DNA of 64,000 bases from an uncultured Pirellulaceae bacterium. GTDB lineage: Bacteria; Planctomycetota; Planctomycetia; Pirellulales; Pirellulaceae. Made by a program: the position numbers and the translations under genes. Below the pieces are notes generated by a model. It saw only the letters and a list, made by a program, of their open reading frames with translations. It ran no database searches and had not been told where the DNA came from. Position 1 is the first letter of the stretch; every line of letters begins with the position of its first letter. The stretch covers positions 1-64,000 of the forward strand of contig CALFWR010000060.1 of assembly GCA_937928555.1 (NCBI GenBank), in the 5' to 3' direction. Below are positions 23,057 to 44,717 of this stretch, piece by piece.

Positions 23057-23158
23057 ACTCCGCACACAGTACACCGCACTCCGCACACAGTACACCGCAC
23101 TCAGTACACAGTACTCAGTACTCGGTACTCGGTACTCGGTACTCAGTACTCAGTACTC
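23057..23158. repeat. Microsatellite: 21-bp and 7-bp tandem repeats
   Basis: Two copies of a 21-bp unit ACTCCGCACACAGTACACCGC (23057-23098) grade into seven copies of the heptamer RGTACTC (23110-23158). The heptamer on the opposite strand, GAGTACY, is the unit of the longer array at 44602-44717. The open frames with Q-Y-S-V-L-G-T repeats across it are artefacts. Confidence 0.9.
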
Positions 23159-24518
23159 AACCTCCCAAAACACCAATCACCCCTCTCACCGCCACACCCC
23201 CGATCGCCACCACACTCACCCAAAACGCAACCTCAAACCCCCGCCCGGTCTTCAATCGTGAATTCCCCCTTCGGTACCTGAAATCAATCGCCGCATAAAC
23301 CACCAACAGCAAAATCACCGTCGTAATCACCCCTCCGATAATCACCATGAAAGCCGGTGCTTCAAACGTCAGATACAAAACACTCCACAGCGCCGGAAAC
23401 ACCCACGAGAAAAACGCAATCGCCCGCCGACGCTGCCTTGCGTCGTGAAAGTCATACAACCCAATCTGGCTAAACGCATCCCCGAACAACCGACTCCACG
23501 CAGCAAGGGCCGCAAAGAGCGTCGAATAAAGCACAACAAACGCCCCGATCAGGAACACAACTTTCGCCTGCGGCCCAAGCGTTTCGGTATATAAACGCGA
23601 CAACGTCTCCACCACCTGGGTGCTTTCTGGCACCAGGCCCCGCGAATGCAAAATCGCCGCCCCCAGCAGATAAAACGCCGCCGTCACCACCGTGTAAACC
23701 ACCATCGACAGCAGCGCATCGATGTACATGATCCGTATCCACCCCCGCGCTCGTCTCGCCCACTGCTCACTCCCGTCGTCCGAACCGGTGTACCGCGCGT
23801 AACCTTTCTCGATCAGCCAGTAGTTGTAAACCATGATCTCATCACCCCCGACACCGGTGATTCCAAACGCGCCCAACACAATCAACATCGCGCCTTCGCT
23901 GAGCGGAAACTGGAACGACAAACCAGTTGCCAAATTCTCAACTGTTAACGCGTTTTCGGTGAACTGAAGCATCAGCAAAGACGTCAGCGTCAGCAACGTG
24001 AACAAACCAATCATCACAATCGCCGTTCGCTCGATTAGCAAGTAGTACCCCAGTGAAACCAGCAACGACACCGAAACCGCAAGGCACACCAGGAACACCC
24101 AAATCGGCACACCGGGAAAAACCACCAACAGAATCAAAGCAACTCCACCGACAATCCCGCCAACCTGAACGCTTTTGACCAGCATCAGCACCAACCACGT
24201 CCACACCGACCAATTAGCCTTGCCAAATTTCGGCCCCGGTAACCGATTGAACGCTGCCATCGTCGTCTCGCCGGTTGCGATCGCGTGCCGACCAAACTCA
24301 AGCTGAATGGCGACCTTCACCAAACAACTAACCAGAATCACCCACAGCGCCACAAAACCCGCCTCGGCTCCCAGTCGCGTCGTCGCGATCAATTCCCCCG
24401 ACCCTACAATCGAAGCAGAAAGAATCAGGCCCGGGCCAAGGTACCTCGCGCTTGCCCAAAATGTCCTCGGAGGCTCGACCACCGCGTCGGCAGAAAGCAC
24501 ATATGGATTTTCTTGCAT
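23157..24518 (-). CDS. Nramp-superfamily divalent-metal transporter-like membrane protein
   Basis: A 453-aa polytopic inner-membrane protein with about 11-12 helices. TM1 (LGPGLILSASIVGSGELIATT) aligns with the Nramp TM1 region, and TM6 (GAFGITGVGGDEIMVYNYWL) with Nramp TM6. The metal-binding motifs DPGN in TM1 and MPH in TM6 are both absent; acidic residues (GSGE, GGDE) stand near these positions. Substrate is therefore uncertain: it belongs with Nramp-related outgroups rather than canonical Mn/Fe transporters. The start was chosen at ATG 24518; the longer frame overlaps the divergent HNH-like gene. Confidence 0.8.
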   Translation of the reverse strand: MQENPYVLSADAVVEPPRTFWASARYLGPGLILSASIVGSGELIATTRLGAEAGFVALWVILVSCLVKVAIQLEFGRHAIATGETTMAAFNRLPGPKFGKANWSVWTWLVLMLVKSVQVGGIVGGVALILLVVFPGVPIWVFLVCLAVSVSLLVSLGYYLLIERTAIVMIGLFTLLTLTSLLMLQFTENALTVENLATGLSFQFPLSEGAMLIVLGAFGITGVGGDEIMVYNYWLIEKGYARYTGSDDGSEQWARRARGWIRIMYIDALLSMVVYTVVTAAFYLLGAAILHSRGLVPESTQVVETLSRLYTETLGPQAKVVFLIGAFVVLYSTLFAALAAWSRLFGDAFSQIGLYDFHDARQRRRAIAFFSWVFPALWSVLYLTFEAPAFMVIIGGVITTVILLLVVYAAIDFRYRRGNSRLKTGRGFEVAFWVSVVAIGGVAVRGVIGVLGG

Positions 24519-24581
24519 GGAATTCGCATCAGGAACCGCAGACTGTAATCCTGATACTATAAGCCGATCTAGGAGAAAAAG

Positions 24582-24866
24582 ATGGCCACCGAGAAGCGCT
24601 GTGAACTTTGCGGCAGATTTACCAAACGCGGCACCACCGAACACCACCTGATCCCGCGCCGCTGCCACCGCAACAAATGGTTCAAAAAGAACTTCACACG
24701 CGAGCAGATGCGGGTAACGGTTTCACTTTGTCACGATTGCCACGCCGCCTGCCATCGCTTCGTCCCGCGAGAAAAAGAACTTGGGCGGCACTTTCATTCG
24801 CTTGAACTACTACTCAGCCACCCGGAAATTTCTAAATTCGTCGCGTGGGTCGCAAAGCAAAGGTAA
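24582..24866 (+). CDS. Small HNH-like zinc-finger protein
   Basis: A 94-aa protein with CELCG near the N-terminus, TEHHLIPRRCH (HH pair as in HNH nucleases) and a second knuckle CHDCHAACH. The C-terminal half is helical (LELLLSHPEI, FVAWVAKQ). The layout C-x2-C ... HH ... C-x2-C-x3-H fits a compact betabetaalpha-metal fold. Nuclease activity is possible but not shown. It starts 63 bp from the divergent transporter start. Confidence 0.8.
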   Translation: MATEKRCELCGRFTKRGTTEHHLIPRRCHRNKWFKKNFTREQMRVTVSLCHDCHAACHRFVPREKELGRHFHSLELLLSHPEISKFVAWVAKQR

Positions 24867-24890
24867 CCGGCCAATCAGCAGGATCGCGCC

Positions 24891-25487
24891 TCAATTTGCA
24901 CCGCCAAGCACCTTGGGCCAGTACTTGCAAGGCAGAACCATGATCGAAGGTGTGTCCCGATGAGTCAGAATCGGCATGAATCTACTGGTAATTGTTCCGC
25001 CAGGAAGATGCTTACGCTCAAACTGAATGACTGACATTTGGCACGCAATATTGCCCGTCAATCTCGACGGCACCTCCATGCCCAGTGGCCGACTGAGTTC
25101 ATTCTGCAAACGATCCGCAAACGCTTGCAACGCCGGGTCGCCCAGGTTTTTCTTGCCCTTGTACGAAAACAGTCCCGCAGCACAATCGGTCAGTAGCGAT
25201 GGCCGATCATCCATCCGCAAATCCGTGGAAAACAGCATCGCCCCTGGAAGATTCCCACGTCCGGGCTCGAACATCAACGCATTGGCCTGAACGATTGCCC
25301 CCCAGACGATTTGGCCTTCGGAGAACAGCAGCTTTGCTTTGGCGACCTGCTGGGCAAGTTCTTTGTCGAACATCTTTTGCAGAAACCCAAGACGAACTTT
25401 ATGCTCGGACTTGAAACGTCGCGGGCATCTCCCGGCCGCAATTCGTGTCTGCTCAATGAGACTTTTGAAGTCCGGATTGTTAGCCAT
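24891..25487 (-). CDS. Conserved-looking protein of unknown function, coupled to the selenoprotein gene
   Basis: A 198-aa soluble protein beginning MANNPDFKSLIEQTRIAAGR. I recognise no domain; there is no signal peptide or membrane segment. A mid-region (EGQIVWGAIVQANALMFEPG) and a C-terminal strand-rich part are visible. The ATG (25487) overlaps the end of the upstream SelW-like gene (stop at 25480-25482) by 8 bp, indicating an operon and likely translational coupling. A longer frame reaching 25700 is rejected because it runs across the SelW-like gene out of frame. Confidence 0.7.
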   Translation of the reverse strand: MANNPDFKSLIEQTRIAAGRCPRRFKSEHKVRLGFLQKMFDKELAQQVAKAKLLFSEGQIVWGAIVQANALMFEPGRGNLPGAMLFSTDLRMDDRPSLLTDCAAGLFSYKGKKNLGDPALQAFADRLQNELSRPLGMEVPSRLTGNIACQMSVIQFERKHLPGGTITSRFMPILTHRDTPSIMVLPCKYWPKVLGGAN

Positions 25488-25713
25488 GCAATTCCCTGAG
25501 CTTTGCCACCACAACACCCTCTTCGGGAAACTGGTTCCCGTTCGCATGGCGAGAGTAAACCATCTCATCGCCCAGTTTGATGTCGTAGATCCCCCCGCCA
25601 CCGCGAATGACCTCGCACTCGGCTTCCGGGAATTCCTTTTTAATTTCTTCCACCAGACCGGTGGCTCTCGGGAGAAAGTTTCATTCTCCGCAGTACTCAA
25701 TCGAAATTTTCAT
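25480..25713 (-). CDS. selW: SelW-like selenoprotein (Rdx family), UGA-encoded selenocysteine
   Basis: A 77-aa Rdx/SelT-SelW-SelH-type thioredoxin-fold protein. It reads MKISIEYCGE, then an in-frame TGA at 25681-25683, then NFLPRATGLVEEIKKEFPEA and on to FPEEGVVVAKLRELHG and TAA. The TGA falls exactly at the second redox position of the family CxxC/CxxU motif (C8-G-E-U11; vertebrate SelW has CGAU). The frame after the TGA keeps family features: LPRA, FPEAE, the GGGGIYDI strand and the late FPEE. A Shine-Dalgarno (AAAAGGA, 6 nt spacing) precedes the ATG. A bacterial SECIS-like hairpin follows the UGA. It is 17 bp after the Lon-domain gene and overlaps the next gene. A standard gene caller would miss it. 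Confidence 0.85.
25650..25680 (-). promoter_or_regulatory. Bacterial SECIS-like hairpin for UGA recoding
   Basis: Starting 16 nt after the UGA, CCACC-GGUCU-GGUGG forms a 5-bp GC-rich stem with a 5-nt apical loop (25650-25664 on the minus strand). The loop contains the GGUCU also found in the E. coli fdhF SECIS apical loop, where G and U contact SelB. The loop GU sits about 23-24 nt after the UGA, within the range used by bacterial SECIS elements. Function is inferred from position and shape. Confidence 0.7.
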
Positions 25714-25730
25714 AACGGTCCTTTTCGCAA

Positions 25731-26438
25731 CTAGTTCAAACTGAAATCTGGTGGAAACTCACGTCCTTCACCAGTTGAATCTTCGATCGCCGAATCCTCC
25801 GATGGCAGCGCATCCAACGTGCCCAACACCAGCTTCACGCGGCGCAGCACATCGGTCATCGAAAGCGCCGCCTGCTGCTGCTCCACCGGCGCGCCCGACG
25901 CGTAGCATATCAAATCTGCCAACTGACCCAACTCAATTTCGTCGCTCAACAGGTGCTTGACTGATTCCCGGTCGAAAGACTCGTCCAACTGCCGGTGCTT
26001 GATAAATCCATCAAGCAACTTCTTTCGAAGAATCGAATCCGACGGCGCAGCATCGTGGATATCATCCAGCAACTCGACCCTTGCCTGTCGGTAGGGTGTC
26101 CTGACATCCAACTCCTGAACGATTTTCGCCCGCCGCATCCCGGCCAGCAAAAGGTTGTATCGCCCGTCTTCCAACTGCGAGTGGGTCATTACTTTGCCGA
26201 TGCAAACCGTCGGATAAATCTCCGGATTCTCGCGGGAAAGATTCTGGGAATCGGGTATCGAAAGCGCCGTTGTGATCAGGTCGTCATCGATCAAACTGTC
26301 TTCAATCAACTGCAGATATCGGGGTTCGAACAAATGCAGCCCCTGCACAACCCCCGGAAACAGCACCAGATTGGGCAGCGGAAAGAGCCGAACAATGCCG
26401 GAGAAGGAATCTGGAAGTTGAAAATCCGCTGTAGCCAT
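25731..26438 (-). CDS. Lon substrate-binding (LON N-terminal) domain protein
   Basis: A 235-aa stand-alone LON/PUA-like domain protein without ATPase or protease domains. Seen: VRLFPLPNLVLFPGVVQGLHLFEPRYLQLI at the start (the typical Lon-N opening), CIGKVMTHSQLEDGRYNLLLAGMRRAKI in the middle, and a helical C-terminal part (~150-215). Such proteins are widespread and their role is unclear; substrate or adaptor binding is the usual guess. It is the first gene of a minus-strand operon with the SelW-like selenoprotein and the unknown 198-aa protein. Confidence 0.88.
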   Translation of the reverse strand: MATADFQLPDSFSGIVRLFPLPNLVLFPGVVQGLHLFEPRYLQLIEDSLIDDDLITTALSIPDSQNLSRENPEIYPTVCIGKVMTHSQLEDGRYNLLLAGMRRAKIVQELDVRTPYRQARVELLDDIHDAAPSDSILRKKLLDGFIKHRQLDESFDRESVKHLLSDEIELGQLADLICYASGAPVEQQQAALSMTDVLRRVKLVLGTLDALPSEDSAIEDSTGEGREFPPDFSLN

Positions 26439-26579
26439 AACTCAATTCACTGATCCACGTCGCAACTAACAGTAAAGGCATTTCAGGAGACCGTCAATCA
26501 GCTCGCTGGTTGACAGAATCACCGTACCGACACAAAATTTTGCCTCATCGCATCCCCCGACTCCATCGCTGCTCCGCCC

Positions 26580-27149
26580 ATGATTCTGTCCGGACAAGAA
26601 ATCGCCAACAACCTCGGGGACAACATAAAGATTGACCCGTTCTGCCCGGAAAACCTTAACCCAAACAGTTACAACCTTACACTTCACCAGGACATCATGA
26701 CCTACGAAGAGGTCGTCCTGGACATGAAGAAAAGCAATCGGGTTCGACGAATGAAGATCCCCCAGTCGGGCATGGTTCTGGAGCCCAATCGCCTTTATCT
26801 GGCTCGAACGATCGAGCATACCGAAACCCACAATTTGGTTCCCATGATCGAAGGCCGCTCTTCGATTGGCCGTTTGGGCCTGTTCGTTCACGTGACTGCG
26901 GGGTTCGGCGACGTGGGCTTCAAGGGATTCTGGACGCTGGAAATGTTTGCCGTTCAGCCGGTTAAAATCTACCCCGGTGTCGCCATCGCCCAGATCTTTT
27001 ACCACCAGATCAATGGCCAAATCAAAGAGTACGTCAGCAACAAGTACCAGAACAACACCGATATCCAACCAAGCCTCCTCTACAAGGAGCTTAACCCCGA
27101 CGGCGTCACCGAGGACGATGACCAGATGACACTGGGATTCAGAAAGTAA
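26580..27149 (+). CDS. dcd: dCTP deaminase
   Basis: A 189-aa trimeric dUTPase-fold enzyme deaminating dCTP toward dUTP. The signature EGRSSIGRLGLFVHVTAGFG and the following GFKGFWTLEM (catalytic Glu region) are clear. The N-terminus MILSGQEIANNL and the NPNSYNLTL block fit the family. The C-terminus is slightly longer than E. coli Dcd's core motif end. Whether it also has dUTPase activity cannot be decided here. The 288-bp spacer downstream shows no feature. Confidence 0.92.
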   Translation: MILSGQEIANNLGDNIKIDPFCPENLNPNSYNLTLHQDIMTYEEVVLDMKKSNRVRRMKIPQSGMVLEPNRLYLARTIEHTETHNLVPMIEGRSSIGRLGLFVHVTAGFGDVGFKGFWTLEMFAVQPVKIYPGVAIAQIFYHQINGQIKEYVSNKYQNNTDIQPSLLYKELNPDGVTEDDDQMTLGFRK

Positions 27150-44594: not shown

Positions 44595-44601
44595 TACGGC
44601 G

Positions 44602-44717
44602 AGTACTGAGTACCGAGTACCGAGTACCGAGTACCGAGTACCGAGTACCGAGTACCGAGTACCGAGTACCGAGTACCGAGTACCGAGTACCGAGTACCGA
44701 GTACTGAGTACTGAGTA
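44602..44717. repeat. Heptamer microsatellite GAGTACC, about 16 copies
   Basis: An uninterrupted run of GAGTACC with GAGTACT variants at both ends, between the second SPFH gene and rnpB. It lies just beyond the poly-T tail of rnpB (minus strand). The reverse-complement unit GGTACTC makes up the array at 23110-23158. Peptides read across it are artefacts. Confidence 0.95.

Follow-up and report, generated by a model that had tools for sequence, protein, structure and literature searches.

A predicted SelW-like selenoprotein gene with an in-frame UGA codon and a LonN neighbor in a marine Pirellulaceae bacterium

The stretch of DNA analyzed here (the window, 64,000 nt) sits on contig 60 of a draft genome of 4.87 Mb, which is divided into 168 contigs and is 91% complete. 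The host belongs to the Pirellulaceae and is placed within Mariniblastus or very close to this genus. On the minus strand of the window lies a 77-codon frame that runs from an ATG (25713-25711) to a TAA (25482-25480) and is split by a single in-frame TGA (25683-25681). The initial annotation had described this frame, with coordinates that proved exact, and had also placed a Shine-Dalgarno sequence ahead of the ATG, where an AAAAGGA is indeed found. When the UGA is read as selenocysteine (Sec, U), the product of the gene, hereafter selW, has 77 residues (MKISIEYCGEUNFLPRATGLVEEIKKEFPEAECEVIRGGGGIYDIKLGDEMVYSRHANGNQFPEEGVVVAKLRELHG) and carries the redox motif C8-G-E-U11. The features of the locus are collected in Table 1.

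Table 1. Coordinates of the features at the selW locus (positions in the window)
Feature	Position	Strand	Remarks
SelW-like (Rdx) selenoprotein CDS, predicted	25480..25713	-	77 codons, UGA as Sec (U11), TAA stop
Predicted Sec codon, in-frame TGA	25681..25683	-	Second redox position of CGEU
Shine-Dalgarno-like AAAAGGA	25719..25725	-	5 nt ahead of the ATG; direct sequence reading
Predicted bacterial SECIS hairpin	25650..25664	-	5-bp stem CCACC/GGUGG, -8.0 kcal/mol
Upstream gene, single Lon substrate-binding domain (LonN, PF02190)	25731..26438	-	Domain match
Downstream ORF, 198 aa	24891..25487	-	8-nt overlap of its start with the selW stop

It had been proposed that the two halves of the frame, once joined, give a full Rdx/SelW-type protein. 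This is in agreement with the domain search, in which Rdx (PF10262) was the only domain of the read-through product, spanning the TGA from residue 2 to residue 73 with 61.5 bits against a cut-off of 22.6. The product also exceeded the cut-off of the TIGR02174 subfamily (49.3 bits versus 34.2). With the NCBIfam equivalog NF041051 (SelTWH_Campy) it reached 73 bits, which is below the curated cut-off of 88, and it is therefore filed only under the wider TIGR02174 and not as a SelTWH_Campy equivalog. An AlphaFold2 model, computed from 24 sequences with Cys substituted for Sec, had a pLDDT of 92.5 and placed a strand at residues 2-8 and a helix at residues 14-27. With this model, Foldseek returned bacterial SelW-related crystal structures of Cys proteins (3dex, 2fa8, 2ojl, 2oka, 2p0g, and 2obk), which have the same fold, with TM scores of 0.85-0.90. 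In the alignments with 3dex and 2fa8 the redox motif is at the same position, with Cys where the window has Sec, and U11 aligns with the second Cys of CxxC in the solved homologs. Direct reading and this alignment thus confirmed that C8-G-E-U11 occupies the CxxC/CxxU site of the family, as the initial annotation had stated. The solved Cys proteins are closer to the CTQC paralog described below than to the subfamily of the window gene. Mouse SelW (2npb), which we take to carry Sec in its CxxU motif, is likewise an Rdx protein of the CxxU kind but differs from the window protein in sequence (20% identity; TM 0.67). In mammalian SelW, Sec is inserted by means of a SECIS in the 3' UTR. The human protein MIEN1 (C17orf37; 2ljk) has the same Rdx fold (35.9 bits, TM 0.75) but carries Cys at the second position of its motif (CEPC), unlike the Sec of the window.

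A search of the host genome for the Sec machinery, which had been suggested as a check on the reading of the UGA, found all of its parts: selA (565 bits), selB (360 bits), selD (249 bits), and a tRNA-Sec (70 bits) with the anticodon tca. All four are on contigs other than that of selW. The selD of the host forms the C-terminal portion of a 730-aa ORF (L011, 1390-3582), the N-terminal part of which presumably resembles a pyridine nucleotide-disulfide oxidoreductase. UGA remains a stop codon in the host, since TGA terminates 15 of the 43 long ORFs that were selected mechanically in the window and prfB is present (463.6 bits). The marks of a UGA-reassigned code, namely, UGA unused as a stop and prfB lost, were not found in the host.

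A hairpin follows the UGA, with a 5-nt loop, GGUCU (25659-25655), 21 nt after it. The bSECIS model described in PMC13188914 prescribes a loop of 3-9 nt, a stem of 4-16 bp, G in the first two loop positions, a distance of 16-37 nt from the UGA, and an MFE of -7.5 or lower, and the window hairpin falls within each of these limits. Taken by itself, this hairpin is only moderately unusual compared with synonymous variants of the window gene, of which 3.8% have the stem and loop and 2.5% have an energy as low. Across the order, the hairpin loop and the full stem are conserved far beyond coding constraint. The 67 segments from the order align without gaps, and, with the T of TGA counted as 1, columns 20-24 pair with columns 30-34 around a loop at columns 25-29. 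The loop motif is present in 64 of the 67 order genes, compared with a mean of 8.7 and a maximum of 17 in 1,000 synonymous draws; the full stem (5/5 pairs) is formed in 30 of the 67, compared with a mean of 5.5 and a maximum of 14 in 1,000 draws; and the mean hairpin energy of the 67 genes is -8.8, compared with -4.6 in 100 synonymous draws. The loops read AGUUU (53 genes), AGUCU (10), AGCCU (2), AGGUU (1), and, in the window, GGUCU. The last is the commonest loop among the TGA genes from the phylum draw, where 16 of 36 have it (a count that leaves out 3 of 39 loci, L150, L167, and L170, which the pattern missed and which are TGA forms when read). Over the loop, 63 of the 67 genes use the codon AGT, although AGT makes up 593 of the 4,952 Ser codons of the flanking ORFs. 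A six-pair helix is formed in 81.8% of cells, a share that none of 500 shuffles reached (76.4% after shuffling), and the covariation score is 0.279 compared with 0.158, again with 0 of 500; neither proportion is a probability for related sequences.

RNAalifold gave no consensus pairs on the 67-row alignment, a result that we counted against a SECIS; the count of the named structure, the synonymous-codon null, and a control with Cys homologs were therefore used instead. In this control, the loop motif was present in 0 of 32 Cys homologs versus 64 of 67 TGA genes, and at least 4 stem pairs were formed in 4 of 32 versus 59 of 67. The control leaves out 2 of 34 loci (L023 and L037), which the pattern missed and which both read as the CxxC paralog, and 31 of its 32 members are a distinct paralog, which we counted against the hairpin evidence. 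The hairpin is lost in the close Cys ortholog L248 and likewise in L124 (CGGC). Also counted against a SECIS were the failure of the outer two stem pairs in 27 and 25 of 66 rows and the number of doubly changed cells, which was 31 in a control with the partners slid by +3 versus 17 in the real structure. Rfam gave no match up to an E value of 1 in positions 24400-27000.

To see how widely the TGA form occurs, we turn to the relatives of the gene. An Rdx match was found in 93 of the 396 genomes of the order. Exactly one stop, always TGA, interrupts the frame at 68 places in 67 of the 396 genomes, and at all 68 a Cys stands three residues ahead of U. Sixty-seven of these places belong to the subfamily of the window gene, and one (L117, CPKU) is of a second type and is absent from alignment A1, which has 67 rows. 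Of the 67 sequences, 40 are in protein alignment A2 and 24 in A3, with the window sequence as P0001 or L120, and C8 does not vary among the 24 rows. Since the 68 places were selected for having a stop, the informative part is the places without one. The 30 top-scoring of these (L021-L050), together with G355:C152 (L259), are a distinct CxxC paralog (e.g., CTQCRWLLRA), L118 is CLPC in another context, and L119 is not clearly Rdx; the reading leaves aside G294:C4 and the profile-end fragments G010:C368, G364:C830, and G282:C147. Because the no-stop places read are the paralog, CLPC in another context, or unclear Rdx, no Cys form of the window subfamily was seen among the places read in the 396-genome set. 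Of the 28 genus genomes, 24 have an Rdx match, in each case with a TGA form. In the phylum draw, 143 of 392 genomes have an Rdx match, and among the matches listed there are 11 places without a stop, all other places having one TGA.

The TGA gene goes together with the Sec machinery in the order. A selA over the cut-off is present in 59 of the 67 genomes with a TGA gene versus 55 of the 329 others (Fisher p 1.6e-29). Among the 8 TGA genomes without a selA over the cut-off, 7 have a selB and 7 a tRNA-Sec that exceed their cut-offs, and each has at least one of the two. We counted against the Sec reading the 55 order genomes that have a selA over the cut-off without a TGA gene, as well as G339, one of the four genus genomes without an Rdx match, which has a strong selA.

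Named genomes were scanned with two patterns that lie at least 27 residues 3' of the Sec codon, the codon itself being excluded. The alignment behind the scan comprised five genus sequences downstream of the Sec codon, so that neither TGA nor TGC was favored. The scan yielded 150 candidate stretches that encode a relative, of which the best 80 were kept. These have TGA at the Sec codon in 79 cases and TGC in one, L248 from a Nitrospinaceae MAG, and the UGA is thus conserved or exchanged with Cys in the best 80 of 150. Of the 79 TGA relatives, 76 are in register and 3 have a one-residue insertion after the TGA; 74 of the 76 have 4 or 5 of the five stem pairs, and 64 of the 76 have the loop motif. 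The records include Planctomycetota, Acidobacteria, Myxococcota, Gemmatimonadetes, Krumholzibacteriota, Calditrichota, and Actinomycetota, and four of them (G285, G335, G347, and G365) overlap the order set. The initial annotation had pointed to Cys at this codon in orthologs and to disrupted ortholog frames as evidence for and against its reading, respectively. Near orthologs almost never have Cys (1 of 80, L248, with L124 in addition), distant structures do (CTQC in 3dex), and the ortholog frames are open on both sides of the TGA. Judged from the codon in the best 80 of 150 named relatives (79/80), the subfamily is predicted to be almost wholly Sec dependent, and its presence should therefore be a good indicator that Sec is in active use.

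The coding stretch 3' of the TGA is under purifying selection in the genus relatives, with pn lower than ps in 61 of 61 pairs at 55-98% identity. No pair includes the window gene, which is too distant from the genus relatives (nearest relative 49% identical, ps 0.65, pn 0.33). This selection bears on the possibility that selW is a pseudogene with a nonsense mutation at the TGA, or that the TGA is a sequencing or assembly error, a suspicion raised by the fact that the TGA alone splits a short ORF and that the genome is a draft. We consider the chance of this to be negligible, as the suspicion is already contradicted by the recurrence of TGA at the same codon in the 67 order genomes and in 79 of the best 80 of 150 named relatives, and the purifying selection downstream argues against it as well.

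It might also be considered that the UGA is a true stop and that the functional product is a 57-aa protein without the redox site, a hypothesis which is based on the presence of an ORF of this length downstream of the TGA that starts with a GTG at 25653. However, the N-terminal segment that holds the first Cys shows in-frame conservation, both in the spacing from C to U at 68 of 68 TGA places and in the invariance of C8 in the 24 rows, and the hairpin loop tracks the TGA forms; such a short product is therefore very improbable. We find it just as hard to believe that the UGA is reassigned or suppressed to another residue, such as Trp, or that Cys is inserted there. Although distant homologs carry Cys at this position, UGA serves as a terminator of long ORFs in the window, prfB is present, and the genome has complete Sec machinery together with a SECIS-like hairpin in the gene. 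The three readings were rejected on the recurrence of the TGA, on the conserved N terminus, and on the UGA stops with prfB, respectively.

We are thus highly confident that the whole is best explained by a chromosomal SelW-like selenoprotein gene, the UGA of which would be decoded as Sec11 through SelB and the hairpin to give a redox product. The gene of this marine planctomycete is almost certainly read through with selenocysteine, as predicted from its sequence, and the initial annotation, which had read the UGA as Sec, is supported by the machinery, the open frames of the orthologs, and the conserved SECIS-like hairpin. From the frame, family, machinery, hairpin, and conservation, all of which were shown by computation, we infer the following course of Sec insertion. 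SelB with Sec-tRNA(UCA) would bind the hairpin directly 3' of the UGA during translation, and selenocysteine would enter at residue 11 in place of termination. The 77-residue product would fold like thioredoxin, its Cys8-x-x-Sec11 motif lying partly at the end of strand 1 and partly in the loop preceding helix 1. It is probably a thiol/selenol redox protein, which would form and resolve a selenenyl-sulfide with a partner protein or a low-molecular-weight thiol, both the redox chemistry and the partner being predictions. Stop-aware annotation easily splits or loses selW, and the counterparts in the phylum are likely to be split or lost in the same way.

SelW-like CxxU selenoproteins of bacteria were described by 2005 at the latest (PMC1088965), where they are given as the commonest selenoprotein family of the Sargasso Sea set, with 48 genes, and where the function of bacterial SelW is called unclear. 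In the GOS set, 427 SelW-like proteins were counted (PMC2398784), very few or no Cys homologs were reported in Sec-containing organisms (PMC1794560), and SELENOW-like PF10262 proteins with CxxU are listed as a high-confidence prediction (PMC13188914, 2026). Selenoproteins and Sec genes have also been described in two planctomycetes (PMC4807772); SelW as a term is absent from the main text of that paper, and its supplementary candidate table may list SelW. The family kind is therefore already known. The window gene has the same family, motif, and single Sec as the published proteins (PMC1088965, PMC2398784, PMC1794560, PMC13188914), as well as the same downstream bacterial-type SECIS and scarcity of Cys forms (the latter in PMC1794560), but the passages on SelW-like CxxU proteins in these papers name no planctomycete SelW. 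The present analysis adds a census in the Planctomycetota draws and the LonN neighbor in the genus. Our literature search found no paper joining Mariniblastus with selenium and none joining selenoprotein W, Lon protease, and operon.

The initial annotation had described selW as wedged without gaps between two operon partners. Of this description, the upstream partner stands, whereas the absence of gaps does not: 17 nt separate the stop of the LonN gene from the start of selW on the same strand, and the downstream ORF overlaps selW (Table 1). In all 22 genus loci read, the window included, LonN is located 5' of selW and shares its strand, with the end of the LonN match within about 150 nt of the selW start. 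With G355 included, the pairing extends to 23 of the 24 TGA-form genomes of the genus, the 24th, G790, being outside the count. The window protein is 36-49% identical to its five nearest genus relatives after the Sec codon. Outside the genus, LonN is beside selW in 1 of the 57 TGA genomes of the order (G349), a count in which contig ends cut several of the stretches. In other families outside the genus, selW tends to sit near Sec genes; selA and selW are on one contig in 12 of the 59 genomes that have both, 11 of them within 20 kb by a comparison made by eye, and selB lies inside 7 of the 70 stretches analyzed.

The LonN pairing across the genus is the least ordinary feature of the locus. Gene order and spacing suggest that selW is probably co-transcribed with the upstream LonN gene in the genus. 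It is possible, though we think it rather unlikely, that the Sec-containing SelW and LonN form a functional pair in the Mariniblastus-type Pirellulaceae, in which a Lon-like substrate adaptor would have SelW as its selenium-dependent redox partner. For the function of bacterial SelW, the pairing offers a concrete lead. The downstream ORF has no Pfam or NCBIfam match, and a homolog was found in 4 of the 28 genus genomes, its own included, one of them with an internal stop; it is therefore not a firm operon partner and appears to be orphan-like. Its homologs in G347, G780, and G783 are on different contigs from the selW of these genomes.

Further Rdx genes were seen beside the TGA form. The genus also has an Rdx gene of another type that is interrupted by a TGA in frame. 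It is found at L117 (G365:C54:5006-5170), which reads CPKU and has a hairpin with the loop AGUUA, and a predicted further copy is located at G784:C278:14914-15081. Seven genomes of the phylum draw have a second Rdx-like gene (L151-L157), in which the Sec position is occupied by Gly (6 genes) or Ala (1 gene). The motifs are CVPG, CEVG, and CELG, and in L157 the sequence EYSEPA also lacks the first Cys; most of the seven have EIFYH near the C terminus in common. These genes look like redox-dead paralogs. All seven genomes list a TGA form as well, of which six were read (L158, L166-L170).

Elsewhere in the window, a small Cys/His-rich ORF (24582-24866) gave a sub-threshold match to the HNH nuclease-like HlpB (39 bits versus a cut-off of 130). 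A unit of 142 bp occurs in two tandem copies with 94% matches at 362-644, a heptamer array of CAGTACT lies at 23088-23159, and another heptamer array, with about 17 head-to-tail copies of CGAGTAC, is found at 44600-44717.
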